From Turritopsis dohrnii (Eukaryota; Cnidaria; Hydrozoa; Anthoathecata; Oceaniidae), in assembly GCA_027922465.2 (NCBI GenBank), contig BQMF02000268.1, positions 536,106 through 600,105 of the forward strand: a stretch of DNA of 64,000 nt, given 5' to 3'. The translations under genes were made by a program, and so were the position numbers. Every line of letters begins with the position of its first letter. The stretch's first letter is position 1. The notes under the pieces were generated by a model. That model was not told the origin of the DNA. It saw only the letters and a list, made by a program, of their open reading frames with translations, and ran no database searches. Positions 9,415-64,000 of this stretch are shown in pieces.

Positions 9415-26364
<16,950 letters not shown>

Positions 26365-48203: not shown

Positions 48204-49731
48204 TGATTTATTAATTGATTATTATGTTCTGTGTTTCAGATAGAAATAAACTGCGAACGAATTGATTACGTCACTGCAGCACTAACCTCGTTTCGAACTT
48301 TATCAATTATGGCATAATTTACTGTGATAATCTTTCCTATAGTTTATGAAAATGAGGCTGCTATCATGTCATGAAAATTAAGCATTTTTTTTTTTACCTT
48401 CGTCATAAAACACATTTTCTCTTCTTGTTATTTTAAAAGAAATTATTTGGTAATATATTTACATGAAATTTAGGTATTATATATTATATATATATAAAAA
48501 ATATTTTTAACAATCTCATTTCTAAAATTTAATCTGAAATCGAGGCTTATTTTTTTCACGAATACGTCCTTCAGTTGTTACGAATAATGACTTTTATTTA
48601 CACAAATTTATATAAGCTGACAGTGTGGAGAATAAAATAATTTTTTATAAAATGTTCGTTTGTTTGAAAACCCTGATGACAAAGGACAACTATCTTGGAA
48701 ACCCCTCTTCAGGTATCTTAACCCTCCAACATCAAACTCAGTCTCGGTTGATTATAGTAACAGTCAAATCGGATCTCACATCGAGGCTTAGGTGCCATAT
48801 CGAGACTTAGTAAATTCATGCAATAATCTCACTGTGATAACAAACCCTGCCATACCTTGAGATTTTGCGTTCTTTCATCTGAAAGTTAAGAGTGGATTCA
48901 ACATCAACGTCTTTCAATAATTTTGCAGTGACTTCTTAAAGCTCGTAGTGATGTTGAGTTACGAATCTCCCATTTTTGCAGAATGTTGAATACATCGACT
49001 TTGGTTTGGTATCTCACATGTACATCGACTTTGGTTTGGTATCGGTCAGTTGTATTGTAGCCGGAGAGCGTCCTCGAACTCCCATTTTATTCTACAAGGA
49101 ACATATTTTGAAAGTGGATGGGCCAAAAAGGACCCAACAAGCATTGATCTCTTAGATTTGCTAAAATAATGCAGATTTGGTGTTACTCACTTGAAACTAA
49201 AGCTTTTAAACACCGAAAGTAAGAAGCTCTTCATTACAAGATTTCTTCTACAACTTCGTCAACAACATCTTTATTCGTTGACATGAACTATTTTGTAATC
49301 ATTCTGGAAGCTTCGTGTTTTCGTAGGTGGCACTCTTGAAGTTCATTTAATTTCTAAACCCTCAAATGTGACTGGATGAGCAAGCAGTTCACCAAACTGA
49401 TCGAGAGATGAAAAAAATTATCGCCTCCGTCCGTATATCGAAAGAAACCCTGGGCACGAAGTTGGAATAAAGTTGTCCGCGAAGAAATGGTTAATAAAAA
49501 AATTTCGATGAAGATAAATCTACTACCCAGACCTTTCAAAACAGAAGAAAACTAATATGTAAACAAATGTTCTGACGTTGAGAAAAATTCATGAAAACAA
49601 ACTAAACTTGGCAAATCATGTTGTTTTGGTTTTGTTACTATGTTACTATATGTTACTACTATGTTACTATATCTTATGGCTGGCACTGAAGTTATAAAAG
49701 CAGTTGCGAGTTATAATCATACACAAGTGGC

Positions 49732-49885
49732 TACCGTAATCGTTCGAATAAGCGCCCGGGCGCTTATTTAATTTTTCTGCGCTTATTCGAGAGGGGCGCT
49801 TATAAAATTATTTTCTTAAAAGGGAGGGCGCTTATTCGAGAGGGGCGCTTATTTGAGAGTGGGGCTTATTCGAACGATTACGGTA
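49732..49885. mobile_element. MITE with TACCGTAATCGTTCGAATAAG termini, copy 1
   Basis: Terminal inverted repeats TACCGTAATCGTTCGAATAA and TTATTCGAACGATTACGGTA bracket about 110 bp made of GCGCTTATTCGAGAGGGGCG sub-repeats. TA at both ends fits a mariner-like insertion. It is duplicated with the 2.8 kb unit. Confidence 0.75.
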
Positions 49886-50149
49886 TTGCACTTTCAACAA
49901 AAATTCTTGAAAAGCCAAATTTGCGATACGTACAGGGTTGTTGCTTGTCGTCAAACAGAGGGAAGTGGCTAATATCATGCGAAGGACTGTCGCGGGGGCT
50001 GGTGTTACAACAGTGGTAGACTTTGCGTAATCTCTGCAAGGTCTTTATGGTCTCACTTTCTTTTCTAGAAGCAATGATTGGTTTATTCTGGATTGGAACT
50101 CAACCAAACACGTTTTTCCTATTTTTTTCCTTCTTGAATATAATGGCGC

Positions 50150-50987
50150 TTGTTAAGTTGTCATTAGCTCAAGAAGGCTCTTGTTATTCCTGTCTATAAA
50201 AATAAAGGCTCGCCATTTGGTTGGAATTTTTATACCAATATCTCTTTTGTATAATATCGATAAGATTTTTCAAAAACTAATGCATAAACGTCTTATCAAA
50301 TTTCTTGAGAACTCAAAGATTATCTATCCTTCTCAGTTCGGTTTCCGCTCGAAACATTCGACTGTATCTGCCCTTTGTCATTGTGTGGAAAAAATTTACA
50401 AGGCGGTCGATAGTGGTAAGTTCGGCTGTGCTGTTTTTATAGATCTCCAAAAAGCCTTTAATACCGTTGATCGTGATATTTTGCTTTCTAAACTTGATTT
50501 TTATGGTATTCGAGGAATTCCTCTTGATTGGTTTCGCTCTTTTCTCTCTCCAATCGCACACAATCTGTCTCAGTATACGGCTTCAAATCTAAACTGTATT
50601 CTTCACGGTGTTCCACAAGGATCTCTTCTTTTCCTCCTTTATGTTAATGACCTTGCATCTGATATTTCTTATTCCGATGTTAATCTTTTCGCTGATGACA
50701 CCATGTTATTTCAAAAGTGACCATTCTTTGAAGTCAATGACCAAAAAAATCAACATTGATTTGAAATTACTCACAAATTGGCTGAATGCCAACAAGATTG
50801 CTTTTTAACCGCAGCAAAACAGAACTTTTAATGTTCAAGCCTAAACGAAAGGTTAGTGACTATGAAATTAAAATTAAAATTAATGGTCACAGGTTGATTC
50901 CAAGTAAATTTGTAAAATACCTTGGTGTTTATATCGACGATGAGCTCAGTTGGAAATATCATATAAACTTTGTTTGTAGTAATCTCA
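50150..50987 (+). pseudogene. LINE RT, copy 1, truncated by the duplication junction
   Basis: Same RT as the complete copy at 52969-54619: FQKLMHKRLIKFLENSKI, AVFIDLQKAFNTVDRDILL, GVPQGSLLFLLYVNDLASD and LFADDTMLF. Translation breaks after LFQK and again at the duplication junction near 50987. Confidence 0.85.
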
Positions 50988-52550
50988 GTAATGATTTATT
51001 AATTGATTATTATGTTCTGTGTTTCAGATAGAAATAAACTGCGAACGAATTGATTACGTCACTGCAGCACTAACCTCGTTTCGAACTTTATCAATTATGG
51101 CATAATTTACTGTGATAATCTTTCCTATAGTTTATGAGTGACTTAAACATGTTCATTGTTCAACATGAAAATGAGGCTGCTATCATGTCATGAAAATTAA
51201 GCATTTTTTTTTTACCTTCGTCATAAAACACATTTTCTCTTCTTGTTATTTTAAAAGAAATTATTTGGTAATATATTTACATGAAATTTAGGTATTATAT
51301 ATTATATATATATAAAAAATATTTTTAACAATCTCATTTCTAAAATTTAATCTGAAATCGAGGCTTATTTTTTTCACGAATACGTCCTTCAGTTGTTACG
51401 AATAATGACTTTTATTTACACAAATTTATATAAGCTGACAGTGTGGAGAATAAAATAATTTTTTATAAAATGTTCGTTTGTTTGAAAACCCTGATGACAA
51501 AGGACAACTATCTTGTAAACCCCTCTTCAGGTATCTTAACCCTCCAACATCAAACTCAGTCTCGGTTGATTATAGTAACAATCAAATCGGATCTCACATC
51601 GAGGCTTAGGCGCCACATCGAGACTTAGTAAATTCATGGCAGTAATCTCACTGTGATAACAAACCCTGCCATACCTTGAGATTTTGCGTTCTTTCATCTG
51701 AAAGTTAAGAGTGGATTCAACATCAACGTCTTTCAATAATTTTGCAGTGACTTCTTAAAGCTCGTAGTGATGTTGAGTTACGAATCTCCCATTTTTGCAG
51801 AATGTTGAATACATCGACTTTGGTTTGGTATCTCACATGTACATCGACTTTGGTTTGGTATCGGTCAGTTGTATTGTAGCCGGAGAGCGTCCTCGAACTC
51901 CCATTTTATTCTACAAGGAACATATTTTGAAAGTGGATGGGCCAAAAAGGACCCAACAAGCATTGATCTCTTAGATTTGCTAAAATAATGCAGATTTGGT
52001 GTTACTCACTTGAAACTAAAGCTTTTAAACACCGAAAGTAAGAAGCTCTTCATTACAAGATTTCTTCTACAACTTCGTCAACAACATCTTTATTCGTTGA
52101 CATGAACTATTTTGTAATCATTCTGGAAGCTTCGTGTTTTCGTAGGTGGCACTCTTGAAGTTCATTTAATTTCTAAACCCTCAAATGTGACTGGATGAGC
52201 AAGCAGTTCACCAAACTGATCGAGAGATGAAAAAAATTATCGCCTCCGTCCGTATATCGAAAGAAACCCTGGGCACGAAGTTGGAATAAAGTTGTCCGCG
52301 AAGAAATGGTTAATAAAAAAATTTCGATGAAGATAAATCTACTACCCAGACCTTTCAAAACAGAAGAAAACTAATATGTAAACAAATGTTCTGACGTTGA
52401 GAAAAATTCATGAAAACAAACTAAACTTGGCAAATCATGTTGTTTTGGTTTTGTTACTATGTTACTATATGTTACTACTATGTTACTATATCTTATGGCT
52501 GGCACTGAAGTTATAAAAGCAGTTGCGAGTTATAATCATACACAAGTGGC

Positions 52551-52704
52551 TACCGTAATCGTTCGAATAAGCGCCCGGGCGCTTATTTAATTTTTCTGCG
52601 CTTATTCGAGAGGGGCGCTTATAAAATTATTTTCTTAAAAGGGAGGGCGCTTATTCGAGAGGGGCGCTTATTTGAGAGTGGGGCTTATTCGAACGATTAC
52701 GGTA
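52551..52704. mobile_element. MITE with TACCGTAATCGTTCGAATAAG termini, copy 2
   Basis: Second copy of the preceding MITE, carried by the tandem duplication rather than by an independent insertion. Confidence 0.75.
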
Positions 52705-52968
52705 TTGCACTTTCAACAAAAATTCTTGAAAAGCCAAATTTGCGATACGTACAGGGTTGTTGCTTGTCGTCAAACAGAGGGAAGTGGCTAATATCATGCG
52801 AAGGACTGTCGCGGGGGCTGGTGTTACAACAGTGGTAGACTTTGCGTAATCTCTGCAAGGTCTTTATGGTCTCACTTTCTTTTCTAGAAGCAATGATTGG
52901 TTTATTCTGGATTGGAACTCAACCAAACACGTTTTTCCTATTTTTTTCCTTCTTGAATATAATGGCGC

Positions 52969-54583
52969 TTGTTAAGTTGTCATTAGCTCAAGAAGGCTCT
53001 TGTTATTCCTGTCTATAAAAATAAAGGCTCGCCATTTGGTTGGAATTTTTATACCAATATCTCTTTTGTATAATATCGATAAGATTTTTCAAAAACTAAT
53101 GCATAAACGTCTTATCAAATTTCTTGAGAACTCAAAGATTATCTATCCTTCTCAGTTCGGTTTCCGCTCGAAACATTCGACTGTATCTGCCCTTTGTCAT
53201 TGTGTGGAAAAAATTTACAAGGCGGTCGATAGTGGTAAGTTCGGCTGTGCTGTTTTTATAGATCTCCAAAAAGCCTTTAATACCGTTGATCATGATATTT
53301 TGCTTTCTAAACTTGATTTTTCTGGTATTCGAGGAATTCCTCTTGATTGGTTTCGCTCTTTTCTCTCTCCAATCGCACACAATCTGTCTCAGTATACGGC
53401 TTCAAATCTAAACTGTATTCTTCACGGTGTTCCACAAGGATCTCTTCTTTTCCTCCTTTATGTTAATGACCTTGCATCTGATATTTCTTATTCCGATGTT
53501 AATCTTTTCGCTGATGACACCATGTTATTTCAAAAGTGACCATTCTTTGAAGTCAATGACCAAAAAAATCAACATTGATTTGAAATTACTCACAAATTGG
53601 CTGAATGCCAACAAGATTGCTTTTTAACCGCAGCAAAACAGAACTTTTAATGTTCAAGCCTAAACGAAAGGTTAGTGACTATGAAATTAAAATTAAAATT
53701 AATGGTCACAGGTTGATTCCAAGTAAATTTGTAAAATACCTTGGTGTTTATATCGACGATGAGCTCAGTTGGAAATATCATATAAACTTTGTTTGTAGTA
53801 ATCTCAAGCGCGCTAACGGTGCTCTGAGTAAACTTCGTCATTTTCTGTCTAAAAAAATCCTCTTATCTCTTTACTTTTCTTTATTTCATTCTCATCTTTC
53901 ATATGGTGCTCAAATCTGGGGTCAACGTAATAATATCCACAGTAATCGTATTCTTACTCTTCAAAAACAATCTTTGCGAATCATGTCTTTTTCTGTTTTT
54001 CGTGCTCCTTCTTCACCTCTTTTTCTTCGATATAAAATCTTGTCATTTTTCGATTTCGTTAAATTCTTAAACATACTTTTTGTATTTAAGTTCTTTAACA
54101 ACCAGTTACCCTCTGCTCTCTCCACTACATTTAATTTGCAGCGATTAAATCAGCATAATCGTGGTCATCTAAGTCGCGCTAAACCTGGATTACTTAAACT
54201 ACCAAAGGTGACAACTGTCTCCTTTGGCAACAACTCACTTTGTTACCAGCAAGCTGTTTTATCTTGGAACTTATTACAAAATTACCTTGCTGTTGATGAC
54301 ATCTCAACTTTAGCATTAAGTCGCTTAAAGTATCTCGCAAAATTATTCTTTTCTCATCCTATGTTGATTAAATTAACCTTTTTCTTTTCTTTTCTTTTCT
54401 TTTTCTTACATTTTCAAATATAATTTTCACTTTCTTTTTGATGTGTTTTTTTTTATGTTTTTATATTAATTTTTGTTAATTACGATAATTTTTTCCATCT
54501 TTGTAGCAATTTATAAGGGGACCACCTCCTTTAGATTAACTCTATGAGTGTGGTCTCTCGTCGGGTCAGAGACAAATAAATAC

Positions 54584-54619: not shown

Positions 54620-55420
54620 CTCATGTATTGGCAACATAGTCAACATTTATACAATAACAGATTATGTGCATGTAACACTTCTGTGCATGTACCACTTCTT
54701 TGTACCTAAGTTAACACCTTTTTATGAGTATCGGTGAATTTCATCGCCCTTCCCTGGTTGTAAAAATAACTTACGCAGAACGAGGTGAGTGCTGAGAAAA
54801 GTCATGATATTATAATTTCGACCTATTTTGTGTGTTTAAGGGACTTACATATTTGTAGCTATCCCTGACAGGTGACAGTTCTGAAAGGAGAAGCATTTAA
54901 TCGTACACAAGTTGGATGATGACGTCATTCTCATACGCTAAGATTTTTTGTTCTCTGTTACTTTCTGACACGATGATTTTCCTTTGTTTTCAAAGAAATC
55001 TTGCAAAAGTGTGAACGAATAATGATTTGTTAAGAAAATAAAGAATTCGTTCAATTTTCGAGAGAGAATATAATTTCGCGGATGTATCTTTTTTTTGTGG
55101 GAATTTAATGCTTGTTTAAAGCTACTGAGAGTAGGTTTTAGGTAGTATTAATAAGAATCTTAAGGAAACCATTAATCCACTAGTAGTAGTAGGCGAGAGG
55201 TATTATAGGCCCACTTTTCGATATTCATAATTTTATCGAGAATTTACTATATTTTTTAACGGTGAAAATAAGGGGGATTTCCCCATGACATTATTAACGT
55301 GAAACGCGTTAATAAGTGTTATCGTGAATGAATTTCGATTAGTATAGAGGTTTGGTGTGTATCCCATCATCAGCTACGATTCTTTTGTCATAATAAGCGC
55401 TGAGCACACACAAGCACATA
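54620..55420. other. boundary region left of the viral-like block
   Basis: No gene. Contains a palindromic GGGGATTTCCCC at 55273-55284 and a 9 bp-arm hairpin TTATTAACG/CGTTAATAA at 55291-55315. A terminal repeat of the element to the right might begin here, but I could not identify one with certainty. Confidence 0.4.
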
Positions 55421-56017
55421 CTAGTAACCATTTTCGGTTATGGACTTTTTCAGGTTTTGAAGTTCTACCATCAAACTTTTTTGAAATTGATTTTGGGTTT
55501 CAGTCTCCATCTTTCTATCTGTAGAACTGAGTCCTTCTAAAGCTTTGTAATATGTTCCCTGCAAAACCTGGAATTCTTTGTAATTGATCCTCCCATCAGC
55601 CAGCGCCTGACTTATGTTAGTTTCGAACACAGCGATTGAGGATGTAACAATATCATATAATTTTATCACTTTTTCTACTTTCTTTTGATATCTTTTGATG
55701 ACAGCTGTGGTAAGTCCGGTACAGATAGAGCCGGCTAGGGCTACACCACCTAATCCTGCAGAAATAGGTATTCCGATAATCGTAGCCCCTGTTGCAATTG
55801 AACCGATGCCAGAGCCAATGGTTATAGCGCTTGAGCTAGCATTTAGTAGCATCGATCGTTCTATCGCCTTGTTGTATCTCTTGAGCTTGATGCTAAACTT
55901 GTTCTTAAGTTTTATCAACTCTTCAAACTCAGAATTTATTACGCTTGCGTTAAACTTTTCCTGCTCATTCAAATCCTCAGGAGCAGTGGGTAGTTTTGGA
56001 TAAATTTTAAAATTCAT
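55421..56017 (-). CDS. putative membrane protein of the viral-like element
   Basis: 198 residues. Residues 1-55 are charged and helical; 60-105 form a Gly/Ala/Ile-rich double hydrophobic segment (ITIGSGIGSIATGATIIGIP, then ISAGLGGVALAGSICTGLTT); 110-198 is helical with EFQVLQGTYYKAL and ends with a coiled coil. The shape suggests a membrane-inserting hairpin protein, such as a virion inner-membrane or pore protein. It is the leftmost gene of the block, divergent from the 423-residue protein with a 59 bp AT-rich gap. I recall similar uncharacterised proteins in cnidarian annotations but cannot name a family. Confidence 0.7.
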   Translation of the reverse strand: MNFKIYPKLPTAPEDLNEQEKFNASVINSEFEELIKLKNKFSIKLKRYNKAIERSMLLNASSSAITIGSGIGSIATGATIIGIPISAGLGGVALAGSICTGLTTAVIKRYQKKVEKVIKLYDIVTSSIAVFETNISQALADGRINYKEFQVLQGTYYKALEGLSSTDRKMETETQNQFQKSLMVELQNLKKSITENGY

Positions 56018-56076
56018 ATTTAGAGGTTTGTTATAACATAATTAATAATAAATTATCCTCTAAATAAATAAATAAA

Positions 56077-57348
56077 ATGGCAGACATTGACATAGATCCT
56101 TTTGGAGAACATGGTATGACGACAGATGAAACAACCGATGAGACGTTTCCTCTCATACCAACTTCGGGTGGTGAACAAATAGATACACGCGGAGCGACGG
56201 GTGAAACCTCATTTGGTGGTGGAGATCAAAAAATTAAACTTTTGAAAAGTTTTGTCGGTGATATATACAAAAGATTATCTGAACGATTGCAACAAAAACC
56301 TGAGGTGTTATATACCGATCTGTTTGAAATCAGAGATGGTGAATTATACTACAAAGACAGTAGCAAACCATTGACAAACAATGGAAGACTAAGGGCTACC
56401 GGTACTATAGCTGATATATTGCGTAAGGAGGGGTTACGTAAATTAGGGTTTGATATACCTAAGGGTAAAATAACAGCACGACAAGCAGTTGCACTTAACA
56501 AAATACAAGAAGAACTCCCTTCATCATCTAAAATCACAAAATCGAGTGATGTAGAGCTTGAGGAGATTACGGGGAACATTGCAAATAGTACGGAAGATCT
56601 AATTTCATTAATAAGACAACAATCGGTCGATCATGAAATGACTCAGACCGGCGATCTATTTGAATATCCTATGCGAGAGTTGTTAGGATTGGATAAGGCG
56701 CTGAGAAACATTAGAGGAGGTCTTCAGGAAGAGGTTGCAAAAAAGGTTCGAATAGAACAGCATATCGATCGAGAGAAAAACAAGTTGGAAGAGATGGAAA
56801 ACGATGCAACATACACAGATGAACAACGAAAAGAGGTTGAAGAGAGAGTGGAGGGATTACATGAAGAGTTGAAAGCTAGGAAAGAGAACATTGATATTCT
56901 CAAAGGTAAATTAAACAGTCAAGTTACGAGCATCAAAGAAACCATTGCTAAAGTCCTCGACAAAGATACCACATTAGGTGAAAGGATACGAACACTATTC
57001 CGTGAACAAGGTATAACAATCGTTAGCATTCTGACAGCGTTTGGTATGGCTATCGGTGTTCTTGTGGAAGCTTTGTTACCATCAGCAACTGGAAACTCTT
57101 CGCAAAATCCTGACAAAGGTGGTGATAAAAAGAACGATGCAAAGGAATGGATAAAAAATAAACTAAAAGCGTTAGCATCACTTCTAGGTAGATTAGCATC
57201 TAAAGCGGCAGAGGCTTTACCAGGAATAATTGGATCTATCGTATCGTGGATACTCACTAGAGCTAAGGAAGTTGTAGGTTGGTTAAGTCAAAATTTATGG
57301 GCTCTGATTGTAGGGTTGATCTATACATACCTTGTCACTAGACGATAA
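56077..57348 (+). CDS. coiled-coil protein with C-terminal membrane anchor, viral-like element
   Basis: 423 residues. Acidic, Thr/Gly-rich N-terminus (1-45: MADIDIDPFGEHGMTTDETT); a globular middle (about 50-190) with LYYKDSSKPLTNNGRLRATG; a coiled coil at about 205-300; a hydrophobic segment at about 313-336 (ITIVSILTAFGMAIGVLVEA); a Gly/Asn/Asp linker; then an amphipathic stretch (LKALASLLGRLASKAAEALP) and a final anchor (LWALIVGLIYTYLV, about 407-420). It is the largest plus-strand gene in the left half. A structural or fibre/membrane-fusion role is possible but only inferred. No start ambiguity: the Met follows an AAATAAATAAATAAA leader. Confidence 0.8.
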   Translation: MADIDIDPFGEHGMTTDETTDETFPLIPTSGGEQIDTRGATGETSFGGGDQKIKLLKSFVGDIYKRLSERLQQKPEVLYTDLFEIRDGELYYKDSSKPLTNNGRLRATGTIADILRKEGLRKLGFDIPKGKITARQAVALNKIQEELPSSSKITKSSDVELEEITGNIANSTEDLISLIRQQSVDHEMTQTGDLFEYPMRELLGLDKALRNIRGGLQEEVAKKVRIEQHIDREKNKLEEMENDATYTDEQRKEVEERVEGLHEELKARKENIDILKGKLNSQVTSIKETIAKVLDKDTTLGERIRTLFREQGITIVSILTAFGMAIGVLVEALLPSATGNSSQNPDKGGDKKNDAKEWIKNKLKALASLLGRLASKAAEALPGIIGSIVSWILTRAKEVVGWLSQNLWALIVGLIYTYLVTRR

Positions 57349-57418
57349 CCATCTGAGTGTGTATATATGTTACACGTATCGTGTAACATAATTTTTGTAC
57401 TCAAATTGAATATACATT

Positions 57419-57841
57419 TTATCTTTCAAAATACCACACAATTCCACCAATACCGAGCATACTCAGAGCTATAAAAGCCAATTCTCTTTCATGTTGATCA
57501 TGACTCGGTGTATAAAAGTCGCTCAATACAGGCTCTCGTGGTAGCGGTTCAAGATGATTACTAAACACCCTATTGTACTCTCTCATTGCATCATTGAGTT
57601 CTACGAATTTTGAATCAGCCTTCTTTTCGAGCATGAGCTGCTTATTGATAAAATCGATTCTTTCCTGTCGTTTTTGCTGCCATTCAATCTGTGCTTTTTG
57701 TAATTTTTCTATGGCCAAATCATGGCGTTTTCTTTCCCTATCGATTCTGTCTTTGGATAAACTTGAAAACAGATAGCTTGATCCTGTGAAAGCCAAAGCG
57801 TTAGCCAAAGCTCCACCCAACATCATTGCGATAGAAGCCAT
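57419..57841 (-). CDS. small protein with two terminal membrane segments, viral-like element
   Basis: 140 residues. Hydrophobic N-terminus (ASIAMMLGGALANALAFTGS), a long basic/acidic helix (residues about 30-90, KDRIDRERKRHDLAIEKLQK), then a C-terminal anchor (LAFIALSMLGIGGIVWYF). It starts 2 bp from the stop of the next upstream gene and faces the 423-residue gene tail to tail with a 70 bp gap. Function unknown. Confidence 0.7.
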   Translation of the reverse strand: MASIAMMLGGALANALAFTGSSYLFSSLSKDRIDRERKRHDLAIEKLQKAQIEWQQKRQERIDFINKQLMLEKKADSKFVELNDAMREYNRVFSNHLEPLPREPVLSDFYTPSHDQHERELAFIALSMLGIGGIVWYFER

Positions 57842-57843
57842 AT

Positions 57844-58071
57844 TTAGATATTGATATTTTCAGGTAAAATCTTTTGTTTGATTAAGTAGTCCTTTGTCAC
57901 TTCACTAGCGGCGATAATGGCAACTAGTTTTCCTGTATCTTCCAAGTCGAACTTTTGAATAGAGGGAGGTGTCATTTTTAACACCTTTTTTCCTAGCATA
58001 GAGTAGCCGATAGCGAAAACGCAGACGACTGATGCATGATATAAATCGTTGACGATACTTTTCTTGTCCAT
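57844..58071 (-). CDS. small membrane protein, viral-like element
   Basis: 75 residues with one hydrophobic segment at about 12-28 (ASVVCVFAIGYSMLGKKVL) and a second weaker one around 46-58 (LVAIIAASEVT). It is packed between two minus-strand genes with no room for separate promoters beyond about 27 bp. Function unknown. Confidence 0.6.
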   Translation of the reverse strand: MDKKSIVNDLYHASVVCVFAIGYSMLGKKVLKMTPPSIQKFDLEDTGKLVAIIAASEVTKDYLIKQKILPENINI

Positions 58072-58098
58072 ATTTGTTACATATACATTTTTTTCTTT

Positions 58099-58443
58099 TT
58101 ATTCCATTTCATGTTTATTGATTTTCACTGGTATTTTAGATTTTTGTGGAAGTGGGGTGGATGGTGACCCACTGGGTAATATTTGCTCTTTCTTTTTATA
58201 CATAAAATAAGTAAATCCACCAACTAAACCGAGAGCTATTATTCCACCTACACCATAGGTGTAATTCATAGGTTGTTCATTTGGTTTGGTGAGAGAGTCA
58301 TCGAGCTTATTCATTTCTTTTTGAGGTGACACTTGTTTTAATTGTTCTCGTTTTTTACGGTTGTATTCCGCCAACTTCTTACCCGCTTCAACCTTTTTTG
58401 GGTTCTTCGTTGTCACTTGAATGGGATTCTGTTCTTCTGACAT
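58099..58443 (-). CDS. small single-pass membrane protein, viral-like element
   Basis: 114 residues. A Lys-rich soluble N-terminus (KKVEAGKKLAEYNRKKREQL) is followed by a Gly-rich membrane segment at about 66-82 (VGGIIALGLVGGFTYFMY) and a Lys/Pro/Ser tail. Its 5' end overlaps the 3' end of the preceding 214-residue frame by 56 bp in another frame, a typical viral economy. Function unknown. Confidence 0.65.
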   Translation of the reverse strand: MSEEQNPIQVTTKNPKKVEAGKKLAEYNRKKREQLKQVSPQKEMNKLDDSLTKPNEQPMNYTYGVGGIIALGLVGGFTYFMYKKKEQILPSGSPSTPLPQKSKIPVKINKHEME

Positions 58444-59032
58444 TTTTATTATCTACTGTATTTATATTATCATCGGATTTATTTAAATTCCTTTCATTGA
58501 TATAATGCCTCCCGGTAATAAGTCCAACACTGAGTGGTGCTAATAATGAGCCGAATTTATAATATAAGTCACATGTAAATCTTTGAAGGGCAGAGTTTAA
58601 GAAGGGGTCAGTTTCCAGGTCATTGCTCAACGCATCTTGATTGTTTATTCCTAACGTTGCACAAGCCCCCATCGAATAAATGCGTATCAGTGATTTCCCT
58701 AAGGATTTTACCATTTGACCTGATAGTTTAGCCTCGTAAATACTAAAAAGTTTTTCTACCTCTTCATCTTTGAGTTTGTTAATTTGCTCTTCGGTGTACA
58801 TTTTCCCTAAGTATAGCTTGCTATTACCTGTTAAGACACACTCTAGCAGTTTTTGTCTTTTACCATCTGAAGGTGGAAATTCACCCGGAACATCATAACT
58901 CTGGTTGATTAAATTATCGATCGCTGTTTCCGCCATTTTTATTAGAGAGAGGTATTTTTTTAACACAAAATAAAAGTAAAATAGCGAGATCAGCAGTATG
59001 CTTAATAATATAAAGTTGACATATTCTATCAT
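58388..59032 (-). CDS. uncharacterised protein of the viral-like element
   Basis: 214 residues from the first Met, whose first 25 are hydrophobic (FILLSILLISLFYFYFVLKK). A second start at Met32 (MAETAIDNLINQSYDVPGEF, at 58939) gives a soluble 183-residue protein and is preceded by an AT-rich gap like its neighbours, so it may be the real start. Residues about 110-180 include SMGACATLGINNQD and RFTCDLYYKFGSLLAPLSVG; the C-terminus is polar and acidic. No family recognised. Confidence 0.65.
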   Translation of the reverse strand: MIEYVNFILLSILLISLFYFYFVLKKYLSLIKMAETAIDNLINQSYDVPGEFPPSDGKRQKLLECVLTGNSKLYLGKMYTEEQINKLKDEEVEKLFSIYEAKLSGQMVKSLGKSLIRIYSMGACATLGINNQDALSNDLETDPFLNSALQRFTCDLYYKFGSLLAPLSVGLITGRHYINERNLNKSDDNINTVDNKNVRRTESHSSDNEEPKKG

Positions 59033-59067
59033 TTTGTTGTGTTTGTTATAATTTTCTTATACTCTCT

Positions 59068-59216
59068 TATAATTTTGTTGAAATTTGTTGTATAAGAGTT
59101 TGCTGTCTTCTTATAATTTTGTTGAAATTTGTTGTATAAGAGTTTGCTGTCTTCTTATAATTTTGTTGAAATTTGTTGTATAAGAGTTTGCTGTCTTCTT
59201 ATAATTTTGTTGAAAA
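59068..59216. repeat. 44 bp tandem repeat, about 3.4 copies, in the viral-like element
   Basis: Units of CTTATAATTTTGTTGAAATT plus TGTTGTATAAGAGTTTGCTGTCTT. Each unit carries both TTATAA and TATAAGAG, near-inverted motifs. The array separates the minus-strand gene starting at 58939 or 59032 from the plus-strand gene at 59297, so it occupies the divergent promoter or a possible replication-origin position. Confidence 0.85.
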
Positions 59217-59296
59217 AATAATTATAAGAGGATGATGATGTTTAATAATATATTCTAACATTGTTAAATAAATAAACATTGTTTACTTAAACAATT

Positions 59297-59545
59297 ATGT
59301 TCGATGATGATGAATCCTCAGATGATGATATTATATTTTCCCATCAAGATACAAAAAGGGTTACTTTTAATGATATAGTAATGGTCCATTATATCTCTGC
59401 TTGTGAATCTCGTAGAAGTAACTGGATAGAGGCTGCTGTTGACAGAGTACGCTTTGAATCGAGGATTAAACATATTGGTAAAATTCTAGATCCTGTATTG
59501 AGACGTAAATTATTCTCTTATAGTAGTCTTATAACAGTCTTATAA
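59297..59545 (+). CDS. PPP1R15/GADD34-like small acidic protein of the viral-like element
   Basis: 82 residues. An Asp/Glu/Ser-rich start is followed by KRVTFNDIVMVHYI, with a canonical RVxF protein-phosphatase-1 docking motif at 21-24. Then comes NWIEAAVDRVRFESRI (42-57) and ILDPVLRRK. The order RVxF, VxVHYI, W-x5-DR-x-RF-x2-RI and L-x-P-x2-R is the layout of the C-terminal PP1/eIF2-alpha module of the PPP1R15 (GADD34) family. Known large DNA viruses (for example asfarviruses and some herpesviruses) carry stand-alone versions that bring PP1 to phosphorylated eIF2-alpha and keep translation going when host kinases shut it down. This is inferred from motif order by eye, not a search. It starts downstream of the 44 bp repeat array. 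Confidence 0.65.
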   Translation: MFDDDESSDDDIIFSHQDTKRVTFNDIVMVHYISACESRRSNWIEAAVDRVRFESRIKHIGKILDPVLRRKLFSYSSLITVL

Positions 59546-59596
59546 CAGTCTTACAGTTTTTGTTACAAGAGTCATGTAACAAATATATCAACCTGT

Positions 59597-60202
59597 TTAA
59601 CAAATCATGTGCGTTCTTGGGTGTTCCATTCTCATGACTAGGCACGTGTGTTTCCCTTCTTTCAGTTTTTCCTTGACATTTTTCAATTCTTCTTGCGATT
59701 CAATGACATCGTTCTCTTCATGAATGGTGGCTAGATCGTTTCTATCTTTTGGATACCACACATATAACATTTTAGCTTGCCGTCGTAAATTTTTAGGTAT
59801 AGCCGTGTATGATTGTGTAAGTAACCATAGCGAATGATTTCGATGGCGACCACTAATTGCCAACTCGAGCAAATGGTTTCTCTTTTTATCCAATTTTTCA
59901 TCAGCGATGATGTCATCAATCAAAAATAAGGTTTTATATCCAGCACAGAAAAAGTCCATTTTCTTAATATATTCATACAAAGATCCTTCCGGCTCAATTA
60001 AAATCACATAGCTGTCATTCCAGAACCACTTCCGATCTCTGTAAGTCTGATTCCACCTCAAGGTGGGACATATAATCACGATGAAATCAAAGTGATCAAA
60101 GTATTCATTTTCTAATAATTTTATGACACGATCCGTTTTGCCGCACGATGTTGGTCCGACGAATAATGCTGTGTGAGGTTCTTTCATGTAAAGTGTGTTC
60201 AT
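59597..60202 (-). CDS. A32-like (FtsK/HerA superfamily) genome-packaging ATPase
   Basis: 201 residues. Walker A GPTSCGKT at 16-23; a beta-strand-rich IVIICPTLRWNQTY region at 41-54; Walker B LFLIDD at 92-97; and SLWLLTQSYTAIPKNLRRQ at 124-142, which carries the sensor Gln and Arg positions of this superfamily. Such ATPases pump viral DNA into preformed capsids in viruses with double-jelly-roll capsid proteins. The size is small, as in Polinton-like and virophage ATPases (about 200-260). Its start is 4 bp from the stop of the upstream major capsid gene, a co-located morphogenesis pair. The reading frame is intact. Confidence 0.85.
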   Translation of the reverse strand: MNTLYMKEPHTALFVGPTSCGKTDRVIKLLENEYFDHFDFIVIICPTLRWNQTYRDRKWFWNDSYVILIEPEGSLYEYIKKMDFFCAGYKTLFLIDDIIADEKLDKKRNHLLELAISGRHRNHSLWLLTQSYTAIPKNLRRQAKMLYVWYPKDRNDLATIHEENDVIESQEELKNVKEKLKEGKHTCLVMRMEHPRTHMIC

Positions 60203-60206
60203 TTTA

Positions 60207-61523
60207 CTAATATAATGTAGACATAAATTGACCGTTTTGTATGTTTAATTGAGCATCCATTATTAGATATATATATGCGTTTAAGTTTCCTGCAGTTTCA
60301 GCGGTCTTTTCAATCTGTAAAGTGATGCCTTCACTTGCATTTTCAATCCTTCGACCGGTCCCATGCAAAGCATTCTCATCAATTGTTCTGAAATCTAACC
60401 ATAGAGCATACTTGTTTGTCAAGTAATCAGAGACTTTTACATCATGTAATCCCAAGCGCTTTCGGTTTTCGCCGACGCTATTATCTTTTGGTTTTCCTTC
60501 AGCAAAATACTTGCAAATCTCATTGTATTGTTCAAACGGCTGCATCCCTTGAGCAAAAAGTTGATTTGGCTTACCCTCGACGATGACAGATACCTTTTCG
60601 ATCTTTGGATTATAGAATTTACAAGTTTCTCGTTTGTAGGATTTTTCTTCTTCAAATAGAACTAAAATACCCTTCAAAGATTTGGCAGGTGTGTTGAATG
60701 ACCAATTCCATGTTGTGTCTGACTTGTTTACTCTAATTTGTCTGTGCCGCAAAACCCTATCATAGAGCAAAGCCATGTTTTGATATTCAGAAGCGATTTG
60801 TATAGCCAACGTGGGTTGTGTCACAAGCTCATATTCAAGTGAGATGTTGGATATTTTGTATTTACCATCTGGGTTACGTTTTTGACCTGCGGCAGTATCT
60901 GGAGGGTCAGAATAGATAACTCGGTTATAGTCGTTAAATGTGATCTCGTAGCATAACCTATTACCTAAACCCGCTTGATAATATGGGATAGTACTATCTA
61001 GCATCTCAAAGTCGAGTGGAATGACAAACTTGTTTTTATAGGTGTCAGCAATGGCCTTGTCTTCTACATCAGAGGTGTCTTTATCTGAAGCACCAATTCT
61101 TAATTTCATACAATTCTCTGTACACCCATCGTCGATGATGATACCCTGTCTTATCGCGTTTCTCTTTTCAAACTTGGTTAACCATAAATCTCTGTAACAC
61201 CCGAAAAGATCAAAGTCATCGATGCTCAATATCTCGTTACCTTCGAACTTGACAGCCAACTTTTTAACGATAGCTCTCCCAATGTTACTGACCAATGTTC
61301 TTTTTGAGTCAGCTTTCGACTCGAGTTCAATATCAAAACTTAGATTAGCTGTGCCAGGGATAATAACATCATCATTTCCTAAATTTGGAAACCTAACCAA
61401 TAATAACTGATTTTGATCGATCTCACTCGGATTGTGTGTGACAATTACTTTTTGACGAGAACCTTTTACACCGCGGGCAGTTCTAAGTGAACGTTCTGGA
61501 TTTAACCTCTTTCCATACTCCAT
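60207..61523 (-). CDS. probable major capsid protein (double jelly-roll type)
   Basis: 438 residues, intact, mostly predicted beta. Notable stretches: an N-terminal basic region (SLRTARGVKGSRQKVIV), QLLLVRFPNLGNDDVIIPG, NKFVIPLDFEMLDSTIPYYQ, LCYEITFNDYNRVI, TWNWSFNTPAKSLKGILVLF and YALWLDFRTIDEN, ending LNAYIYLIMDAQLNIQNG. The size, beta richness, repetitive two-part layout and position between a penton-like gene and the packaging ATPase fit a double-jelly-roll major capsid protein. I cannot show the fold by eye. The closest look-alikes I recall are uncharacterised cnidarian proteins. Alternative: another beta-rich virion protein. Confidence 0.65.
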   Translation of the reverse strand: MEYGKRLNPERSLRTARGVKGSRQKVIVTHNPSEIDQNQLLLVRFPNLGNDDVIIPGTANLSFDIELESKADSKRTLVSNIGRAIVKKLAVKFEGNEILSIDDFDLFGCYRDLWLTKFEKRNAIRQGIIIDDGCTENCMKLRIGASDKDTSDVEDKAIADTYKNKFVIPLDFEMLDSTIPYYQAGLGNRLCYEITFNDYNRVIYSDPPDTAAGQKRNPDGKYKISNISLEYELVTQPTLAIQIASEYQNMALLYDRVLRHRQIRVNKSDTTWNWSFNTPAKSLKGILVLFEEEKSYKRETCKFYNPKIEKVSVIVEGKPNQLFAQGMQPFEQYNEICKYFAEGKPKDNSVGENRKRLGLHDVKVSDYLTNKYALWLDFRTIDENALHGTGRRIENASEGITLQIEKTAETAGNLNAYIYLIMDAQLNIQNGQFMSTLY

Positions 61524-61568
61524 TATTAATTATGATATATATAATTAATTATTACTTTTTATCTCGGT

Positions 61569-62129
61569 TTAGCGGATGTGCAAAACAACGGTTCTTCCTA
61601 GGTCTTCTTTTAGTATATTGTCATGCTGATCTGTGAGTTTCAACGTGAGAGACTCAAATACACCATTTTTTAATTTTTTGTATTGAGGGTTTTTAGGCTG
61701 AACATGTGTGAAGTCATTATATTCAACCAGGTGATAGCTTAGTAAAATATCACTTAGCTTTCCATTCTCAAGATTTTGAGTGTTGTCGAGTTCAGAGAGA
61801 TGTAAATTCATTTTGGTTATTTTAGCGAGCTTATTTGTTCTGATTATATGAGGGTCTTTGACTAATGATTTAAAACTTACCTCACCTTCTAAAAAGGCAC
61901 CTGCTAAAAAGGCATTCAATTCCCTGCTCGTGAATGTTCCTTTAGGTACCAACTTTTTAGCTTTCCCATCAGCAGACAGTTTCACTGTTAGGTCTGTGGT
62001 TATTTCATACGTAACATTGTCTGCAAACATATCAACCAATGCAATTTCTTTTGAGCCATCCAAGTTTTGAATGGGGTAAGATAGATATATGGTATTTTCT
62101 CCTTTTGCGAGATTTGCTGTGATATACAT
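61569..62129 (-). CDS. probable minor capsid (penton-like single jelly-roll) protein
   Basis: 186 residues starting MYITANLAKGENTIYLSYPI. Beta-rich, with LVPKGTFTSRELNAFLAG (a Polinton minor-capsid-like turn) and the ending SLTLKLTDQHDNIL then LGRTVVLHIR; a final 'L.D..N......V.LHIR' strand is typical of penton proteins in Polinton-like elements and virophages. It lies 45 bp upstream of the major capsid gene on the same strand and diverges from the 387-residue gene with a 39 bp AT-rich gap. Confidence 0.65.
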   Translation of the reverse strand: MYITANLAKGENTIYLSYPIQNLDGSKEIALVDMFADNVTYEITTDLTVKLSADGKAKKLVPKGTFTSRELNAFLAGAFLEGEVSFKSLVKDPHIIRTNKLAKITKMNLHLSELDNTQNLENGKLSDILLSYHLVEYNDFTHVQPKNPQYKKLKNGVFESLTLKLTDQHDNILKEDLGRTVVLHIR

Positions 62130-62168
62130 TTTCTTGTATTAAATAGAAGATAATATTATTAAATAATA
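62130..62168. promoter_or_regulatory. 39 bp divergent promoter region in the viral-like element
   Basis: All upstream sequence between two divergent start codons is TTTTCTTGTATTAAATAGAA followed by GATAATATTATTAAATAATA. Both genes must be driven from this AT-rich stretch or from within each other's leader. No canonical TATA box at a fixed distance can be assigned. Confidence 0.4.
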
Positions 62169-63332
62169 ATGGAGAATATTTTTAAATATGTTCCCAACGC
62201 GCTTTATAAACCAAATGGAGGGCAATACCTTCAGATATTGAATGCTAAAGATTTATACAAACAAACAATTATCGTCTCTGAGAGCGGTTCTTTCCCCGCA
62301 ACTTTTCCAAATATATTTACTAATTACGAAATGGATGAAAATGATCAACGTATGAAAATTTGGCAGGAACAACCGTTTAAATTATGGCAAACCCAACTCA
62401 ATTTTGTCACTTGGTGTGCTTCAAGCGCTTGTGGAGTCAGTTCTGAACATCTGAAAGAAAGTCGCTCTACTCCTATGATTAGAGCAGTATATCGTTTTCA
62501 CGTCTATTATCATATTAGACGAATCATTAAGCGTCTGCAGACACCTCTACCTTTTGAAGATAGTTTCAACCAATACGATAATCCTTATAATAAAGAAGAG
62601 TTTTTAAAAATCTGTAGTGAATATGGTGTTGATTCTGATCCTAAAAAATACAAAGGGCAATATTTTTACAGTTCATATCAAAAAAGACGTAGAGACTATC
62701 CAACGCCAGGTCTGAGTTATTTCACAGACGACTCCATGACACGATGGATTATAGAAAAATCTAAAGGCTTTACAAAAACAGGTCTTGTAAAAATTTCAGA
62801 GAGTGTTAGAGCATATGCTTATCTTGTTCTTAGTTCACAAGCCTCAGCTCGTTCTTCTATTTTAGGTAATAATTCAAGCGCTTTGACAGCTCAAAGAGTT
62901 TTTATGAACAACTTTGAAGACATTGTTAACCGCAGAGTTGATATTCAAGATGACATTAAACGTTATCAAGATACTTTAAATTACGCTTCAAGCAAGGTTG
63001 ATTATTCTGTTGGACAAGGTATTTACATGTTACCTAGTGACATGAATCTAAACATCAAGTCGGGAGTGTCTGGTTATAATAATAAAATTCTCATATCTAA
63101 TGACAACTTGAGCCTCGGAAGAAACAAAATGATTAATGTTATGCAAGAGCATCATATTTCACCCAAAGTGACTAGCTCTCCAACACAAACAAAAAATAAA
63201 AGTTTACAAAAGAAAGTTCAAACAAGAGTAGTGAGTCAAACAGATTCACTCCCATCTCATGAAGAAGAGAAAATAGCTTTGGTTTTAGCGATTACCACGA
63301 TGTTTAGTATATGGTATTATTATTATTATTGA
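62169..63332 (+). CDS. 387-residue protein of the viral-like element
   Basis: Residues 1-330 look globular (YVPNALYKPNGGQYLQILNA, FVTWCASSACGVSSEHLK, RFHVYYHIRRIIKRLQTPLP, SYQKRRRDYPTPGLSYFTDD), with a helical region of QASARSSILGNNSSALTAQR and NNFEDIVNRRVDIQDDIKRY. A Lys/Gln/Ser-rich linker leads to a final membrane segment (EKIALVLAITTMFSIWYY, about 366-383). I do not recognise the family; position next to the capsid genes suggests a virion or assembly role. Its 3' part recurs from 63818. Confidence 0.75.
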   Translation: MENIFKYVPNALYKPNGGQYLQILNAKDLYKQTIIVSESGSFPATFPNIFTNYEMDENDQRMKIWQEQPFKLWQTQLNFVTWCASSACGVSSEHLKESRSTPMIRAVYRFHVYYHIRRIIKRLQTPLPFEDSFNQYDNPYNKEEFLKICSEYGVDSDPKKYKGQYFYSSYQKRRRDYPTPGLSYFTDDSMTRWIIEKSKGFTKTGLVKISESVRAYAYLVLSSQASARSSILGNNSSALTAQRVFMNNFEDIVNRRVDIQDDIKRYQDTLNYASSKVDYSVGQGIYMLPSDMNLNIKSGVSGYNNKILISNDNLSLGRNKMINVMQEHHISPKVTSSPTQTKNKSLQKKVQTRVVSQTDSLPSHEEEKIALVLAITTMFSIWYYYYY

Positions 63333-63817
63333 AAACAAAACTCCCTTAGGAGAACCCCCTAGGGTTTTTGTTGTTGTTGTTGTTGTTGTTGTGATACCCT
63401 AGAGGGTTTTTAATTCATTGTCTTCGATCTAACCGGCACTCCACCCTGGCTTCTCCAATCCACCAGCTCTGAGCTCTACCCCTAGATCTTAGACTATTTG
63501 TGTGTGACTACTTACGAACTCCGACTACTACGCACGCAATGGCCGTTCATGATCTGTTCGAGTATATTACATCTAGTCACATTGTTTTTCCCGACAACTT
63601 TTGGCACATTTTGTGGTGAATACCGGGAGCGGACGGCACCATCCAGTTCCAATCTAGCCGCTCCACTAGACCTTCCCTTTCCGGCAGACTCTGTCGCCTG
63701 TTCACCACAATTTTCAAATTATTCCGCTCTTGGGTTTTATATCATTCATTTAGACCTTAGTGTCTGCTTGTGGTGTCTCTCGGAACGCTATAATTTTGTT
63801 TTTATTTTGATTACATA
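63333..63817. other. GC-richer spacer after the 387-residue gene
   Basis: Holds a palindrome of CCCTAGGG type (about 63352-63366 and 63398-63410), a TTG trinucleotide run at 63367-63392, then a segment (about 63425-63800) of clearly higher GC than the genes on its left. A 106-residue plus-strand frame at 63498-63818 has no recognised domain and I do not call it a gene. It could be an insertion between two copies of the gene's 3' end. Confidence 0.4.
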
Positions 63818-63993
63818 ACAAAATGATTAATGTTATGCAAGAGCATCATATTTCACCCAAAGTGACTAGCTCTCCAACACAAACAAAAAAATAAAAGTTC
63901 ACAAAAGAAAGTTCAAACAGATTCACTCCTATCTCATGAAGAAGAGAAAATAGCTTTGGTTTTAGCGATTACCATGATGTTTAGTATATGGTA
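63818..63993 (+). pseudogene. partial second copy of the 387-residue gene's 3' end
   Basis: Matches 63123-63315 closely, starting AACAAAATGATTAATGTTAT and running to the membrane-segment codons. It differs by one extra A in the AACAAAAAA run (a frameshift), loss of 18 bp between CAAAC repeats, and a few substitutions. It runs to the window end (64000), where the sequence diverges after TATGGTAT. It is a decayed or partial duplicate. Confidence 0.85.
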
Positions 63994-64000
63994 TGTATTT

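Follow-up and report, generated by a model that had tools for sequence, protein, structure and literature searches.

A cluster of virus-like genes lies at one end of contig C268 (BQMF02000268.1) in the genome of the hydrozoan Turritopsis dohrnii. The window analysed here is the whole 64,000-nucleotide stretch C268:536106–600105, and the cluster within it is very probably the left part of an integrated Maverick/Polinton-type DNA virus of ~15.5 kb, cut by the contig end. A first-pass annotation had described a capsid-bearing element with no replication genes. That picture is an artefact of the contig end, as an integrase, a PolB-like open reading frame (ORF) and a terminal inverted repeat (TIR) are present in another copy of the element, C311. 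The features that place the element among Polintons/Mavericks are an rve integrase, an A32/FtsK-type ATPase, and TIRs with Maverick end motifs; the placement also drew on passages of a further source (PMC11071308).

The element belongs to a kind of virus already known but has three unusual features, among them a plausible counter-defence gene. A fuller reading is possible, and is offered with far less confidence than the identification itself: a still circulating Maverick virus in which one capsid/integrase cassette is shared by two replicon cassettes (each a polymerase with its cognate termini), with three inversion isomers and a DP71L-like gene of its own for translation rescue. In this reading the isomer seen in the window lacks target-site duplications owing either to its integration or to later reshuffling.

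The contig end and the replication half

Contig C268 ends at 600105, so the right edge of the window is the contig end and falls inside the element. The left boundary, at 55185, is set by the terminus shared with other copies of the same gene order (type 1 of the three described below), which leaves ~8.8 kb of the window copy visible; its right terminus lies beyond 64000 and its own right half is unread. Neither polymerase nor integrase was visible among 58 stop-to-stop frames of at least 90 codons, or by Pfam in the array ORFs and eight ORFs outside the element, and to that extent the earlier observation holds. The longest frame outside the element (828 codons) encodes a hAT transposase, and the eight outside ORFs matched hAT transposase, a G protein-coupled receptor (GPCR) and reverse transcriptase, the others having no match over the cut-off. 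The seeming absence of polymerase and integrase comes from the contig, whose assembled sequence breaks off within the element.

The search covered 435.9 Mb of assembly, and flank pieces were taken from ten other copies. In C311, the right arm of the window (63023–64000) continues at 95.7% identity into piece L023, which beyond the arm holds a 101-aa ORF, an integrase, a 93-aa ORF and a 1376-aa ORF, followed by an inverted repeat of window positions 55219–55404 (98.4% match). The integrase matches rve (PF00665, cut-off 32.6 bits) in copies other than the window's, at 41.4 bits in C311 (L023:1887–2885) and 41.1 bits in C110 (L020:832–1833), and would insert new copies of the element. Integrase sequence occurs in all ten flanked copies (C13, C229, C739, C300, C849, C110, C78, C151, C125 and C311), and polymerase sequence, of one of two kinds, in 14/14 other copies read far enough. 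Calculated from the outer motifs, lengths are 15,571 bp in C311, 15,480 in C110, 15,151 in C13, 15,912 in C229 and 14,971 in C300. The TIRs, polB (by motifs) and integrase that the first-pass annotation proposed to look for by flank assembly are all present in other copies of this genome. The first of its two alternatives, a replication half beyond 64000, is right; the second, a lineage lacking that half and moving by another route, is unsupported, since other copies carry polymerase and integrase. A false polymerase-less virus is removed in this way, and the case shows how a contig end can create one.

Gene content and constraint

All ten intronless ORFs first listed stand at the coordinates and lengths given for them, and the one gene overlap (58388–58443) is real, but the array holds an eleventh gene (59297–59545, + strand) and the element starts at 55185 rather than 55421. 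The features of the window copy are as follows, with ratios of nonsynonymous to synonymous polymorphism (pN/pS) for ORFs A–F.

55185–55404, +: left TIR, outer end AGTAGTAGGCGAGAG at 55185–55199, shared by other type-1 copies
55421–56017, −: ORF A, 198 aa, one hydrophobic segment, array end; pN/pS 0.16 over 6 copies
56077–57348, +: ORF B, 423 aa, one hydrophobic segment; pN/pS 0.26 over 4 copies
57419–57841, −: ORF C, 140 aa, one hydrophobic segment; pN/pS 0.05 over 6 copies
57844–58071, −: ORF D, 75 aa; pN/pS 0.11 over 6 copies
58099–58443, −: ORF E, 114 aa, overlaps ORF F; pN/pS 0.44 over 6 copies
58388–59032, −: ORF F, 214 aa, N-terminal hydrophobic segment; pN/pS 0.14 over 5 copies
59065–59215, no strand: 44-bp tandem repeat, 3.4 copies, between divergent ORFs F and G
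59297–59545, +: ORF G, 82 aa, PPP1R15/DP71L-like (PF10488), absent from the earlier list
59597–60202, −: ORF H, A32-type packaging ATPase, 201 aa (Pox_A32, phrog_2666)
60207–61523, −: ORF I, probable double-jelly-roll (DJR) major capsid protein (MCP), 438 aa
61569–62129, −: ORF J, 186 aa, possible penton-like protein (by position only)
62169–63332, +: ORF K, 387 aa, conserved, C-terminal helix, 3531 relatives
63817–64000, +: partial, frame-disrupted direct repeat of the ORF K 3′ end, also in C311

The packaging ATPase proposed at 59597–60202 is borne out: ORF H has a Walker A motif (GPTSCGKT) and a Walker-B-like LFLIDD, and matches Pox_A32 at 34.4 bits (cut-off 22.8) and phrog_2666 at E 5.4e-12. 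It would pack the DNA into a DJR capsid, presumably giving virions. ORF I is the probable DJR capsid protein, as DJR capsid or scaffold proteins make up 49/50 of the matches listed for its predicted structure; on this model of low confidence, the product of 60207–61523 may fold as the first-pass annotation supposed. With the A32-type ATPase, this DJR-like MCP (on a weak model) and pN/pS of 0.05–0.44 in A–F, the earlier description of a Polinton-type morphogenesis module with intact frames also holds. ORF J had no Pfam match and an uninformative PDB sequence search, and the poor predicted model of ORF K gave no fold match. The 44-bp repeats between ORFs F and G are possibly regulatory. No peptidase (adenain-like protease) was matched by Pfam in ORFs A–K or in the four right-half ORFs of C311, which is weak evidence because MCP and PolB escape Pfam too.

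The element is abundant in this genome. A search with the MCP, in which 96 of 1109 candidates were scored, gave 96/96 full-length copies at 97–100% identity, 95 of them without a stop. In the right half, pN/pS (4–8 copies each) is 0.18 for the integrase, 0.45 for the 101-aa ORF and 0.58 for the 93-aa ORF, and overall it falls below 0.3 in A, B, C, D, F and the integrase. Against uniformly intact copies stand split frames in A (L013), B (L009, L013), F (L011) and the integrase (L011, L013); a stop interrupts another integrase copy, and 28/121 of the integrase frames listed carry one or two. The genes of the element have been under selection, with many copies now decaying.

A PPP1R15/DP71L-like gene

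ORF G matches PF10488 at 29.1 bits (cut-off 26.1), and its best PDB sequences by phmmer are PPP1R15B (E 2.8e-5) and DP71L of African swine fever virus (ASFV; E 1.3e-4) (PDB 4v0x, 9nb9). The alignment with both spans the PP1-docking and the substrate-binding stretch; a substrate-binding helix H1 is described as common to R15A, R15B, Drosophila R15, ICP34 and DP71L in part of one source (PMC7615683). Like G, DP71L is a small viral protein; unlike PPP1R15B and ASFV DP71L, G sits in a Maverick-type element. No paper linking PPP1R15, GADD34, DP71L, ICP34.5 or eIF2alpha to polintons, Mavericks or adintoviruses was found in a search that left subscription journals mostly outside.

ORF G is an accessory gene of part of the element family. 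Among the MCP loci L001–L008 it is present in four (one being the window and one cut by a contig end) and absent from the type-2 copies C13, C229, C739 and C300. A listed G lies within 3 kb of 27/96 MCP copies, always 1.4–1.7 kb off, to the same side as in the window and, as there, on the opposite strand. Across the genome, 150/150 scored frames (of 451 candidates) are stop-free at 93–100% identity, and 150/150 scored by the family model (of 413 candidates) exceed the cut-off.

We propose from the aligned stretches that G may recruit PP1 to eIF2, keeping translation on against host eIF2 kinases: by tying host PP1 to phosphorylated eIF2, it would let translation continue during infection. It is somewhat unlikely, though a serious alternative, that G is not a working eIF2-phosphatase adaptor but a decayed or repurposed gene or a chance match. 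The PF10488 and phmmer scores are modest, no relative was found in the database search, about half of the loci L001–L008 lack the gene, and pN/pS is 0.69 over 9 copies, a value that weak constraint or an arms race could give, and no evidence either way. This alternative is opposed by the stop-free frames and by the PP1-docking and W..AA.DR.RF.SRI stretches, which align with PPP1R15B and DP71L and are kept in 9/9 full or near-full copies (one short piece excluded). If G is functional, one more group of DNA viruses counters translation arrest by recruiting the eIF2 phosphatase.

Polymerases, termini and gene orders

Two polymerase genes occur among the copies: PolB-1, the 1376-aa ORF of C311 (L023:3411 onward), and PolB-2, the 1291-aa ORF of C110 (L020:2364–6239). 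Identity between them is 83% in the first 133 residues and 23% across 740 columns further on, and both carry, in order, what we take to be the Exo (exonuclease), A, B and C motifs. The body of the polymerase is recognised by no profile in Pfam, PHROG, NCBIfam or the PDB, so the assignment to PolB depends on motifs, size, position and the similarity of the two to each other. Such a polymerase would copy linear DNA from the TIRs by protein priming. The common 133-aa leader has a Rho_N match, and residues 570–611 of PolB-2 have an endonuclease-VII-like match (PF02945, 26 bits, cut-off 23.6) that Pfam did not find in PolB-1.

Each polymerase keeps its own terminal repeats in the copies examined, five with PolB-1 and nine with PolB-2. 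PolB-1 was found in 5/5 type-1 copies (C311 by definition; C232, C716, C663 and C610 by C-terminal pieces), C467 being outside the count since its contig ends before the polymerase, and PolB-2 in 9/9 type-2 and type-3 copies, at 67–77% or 96–100% likeness to the C110 form. PolB-1 copies end in AGTAGTAGG...CCTACTACT and PolB-2 copies in AGAGATAGG...CCTATCTCT. The polymerase with its terminal repeats seems to behave as one exchangeable cassette and the capsid genes with the integrase as another, recombination being the likely route of exchange; a shared leader ahead of a divergent remainder would place the exchange point within the polymerase gene. Near-identical MCPs were the basis on which the copies were chosen, and it is within this set that a constant capsid contrasts with a changing polymerase. 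The many young copies in this one genome allow the sequences of capsid, polymerase and termini to be traced separately, and whether Maverick polymerases and terminal origins travel as one unit becomes testable.

The end motifs, AGTAGT//ACTACT and AGAGAT//ATCTCT (the latter one base from (AG)3), resemble in sequence the two commonest of vertebrate Mavericks, for which passages of PMC8097293 give (AGT)2//(ACT)2 as commonest and (AG)3//(CT)3 as also common, with 6-bp duplications and lengths of 12.7–24.6 kb. The present elements share with those vertebrate elements a PolB-like polymerase (by motifs), rve integrase, packaging ATPase, probable DJR capsid protein, TIRs, a length within that range, and constrained genes. 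They differ in having 5-bp duplications where any were found, no recognised protease, and the extra genes A–G. They are also like adintoviruses and other meldviruses in their animal-associated combination of PolB, rve integrase and adenovirus-like capsid genes (PMC11071296, in part). The same passages define adintoviruses by a hexon and a PolB that BLASTp relates to reference adintoviruses, an OTU-bearing PolB and a chromodomain integrase; no OTU or chromodomain match over the Pfam cut-off was found in the right-half ORFs. Mixing as such is not new, because mixed hexon and PolB clade pairings are reported there for adintoviruses/meldviruses (PMC11071296); the mixing here involves element copies of a single genome whose capsid proteins are almost the same.

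TIRs were found in 10/11 copies compared, the left piece of C232 being too short. Identity between the ends is 100% over 311 bp in C300, 91% in C229, 90% in C13 and 92–98% in C311, C716, C663 and C610; in type 3 it is 71% in C110, 76% in C151, and 91% and 75% over two stretches in C125. Exact 5-bp duplications flank three copies, all type 2: C13 (GGATC), C229 (GTAAC) and C300 (ACTAT). No duplication fits at C110, C125 and C151 (type 3) or at C311, C232, C716, C663 and C610 (type 1), and only one terminus was usable in the two other type-2 copies and in C78 and C467. The contrast of 3/3 against 0/8 gives a Fisher p of 0.006, though the groups were drawn up once the data had been seen and several cases were read by eye. 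Single type-1 copies have, by eye, different TIR variants at their two ends, which fits later recombination between copies, an event that would scramble duplications too; type-1 and type-3 copies may also have inserted without duplication. The 24 flank pieces compared have nothing in common, either among themselves or with those parts of the element that were checked, and the copies are therefore separate insertions.

The copies could instead have multiplied in the genome like a transposon, with no virion stage and with the capsid genes as passengers. This would suit the very high copy number and the 5-bp duplications, and the element is known here from its sequence. The low pN/pS of A–F and the stop-free MCP in 95/96 scored copies suggest instead that structural genes are still needed, as is argued for cyprinid Mavericks in part of PMC8097293, and we consider such a transposon unlikely, if well short of negligible.

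Three gene orders were found, in which S–I–P stands for the 101-aa ORF, integrase and polymerase. Type 1 (C311, and the window, placed here by the left terminus and right arm that it shares) reads end–(A–F)(G)(H–K)(S–I–P)–end, type 2 (C13, C229, C739, C300, C849) end–(H–K)(F–A)(S–I–P)–end, and type 3 (C110, C78, C151, C125) end–(K–H)(F–A)(S–I–P)–end. The inner order of type 3 is deduced from both edges and from the unchanged A-to-MCP distance in C110, C151 and C125; C78 has ~3.1 kb extra between A and MCP. The orders differ by inversion of H–K or of A–K, with breakpoints near TIR-like sequence. Among the matches listed, 15 MCP–integrase pairs lie within 14 kb, of which 9 are type 1, 5 type 3 and one fits none; type-2 integrases are not among them because the integrase list stops at 95% identity and they measured up to 94%. 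Module orientation differs between vertebrate species (PMC8097293, in part), whereas here three orders occur within one genome, and no published report of three orders among near-identical MCPs in one genome was found in literature listings. In C849 (L017:7968 onward), a second element begins inside the PolB-2 of the first, by nested insertion or rearrangement.

Assembly or haplotype artefacts among near-identical repeats could produce both the gene orders and the polymerase mixtures. The assembly does break at element repeats, with 20/96 MCP copies no more than 12 kb from the low end of the contig that holds them (high ends left uncounted), and the middles of the type-3 copies are unread. Every order nevertheless recurs at several loci (at least 2, 5 and 4 in the flanked set, besides types 1 and 3 in the coordinate lists), the flank pieces share nothing, and exact duplications surround three type-2 copies, all of which make such artefacts improbable. 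A capsid-only or satellite lineage moved by a helper, suggested by a window that shows nothing of the replication half, is barely credible given the contig end and the polymerase and integrase sequence of the other copies.

The rest of the window holds a tandem 2.8-kb direct repeat (48204–50987 and 50992–53806, 98.6% identical) with a reverse-transcriptase ORF, and a hAT-type transposase ORF that stays open over a long 827 aa (12811–15294), possibly from a young DNA transposon. Long minisatellite-like arrays lie at 19742–22608, with a strong C-over-G skew, and at 17972–18402. A rhodopsin-type GPCR ORF of 352 aa in a single frame (24071–25129) points to an animal host.

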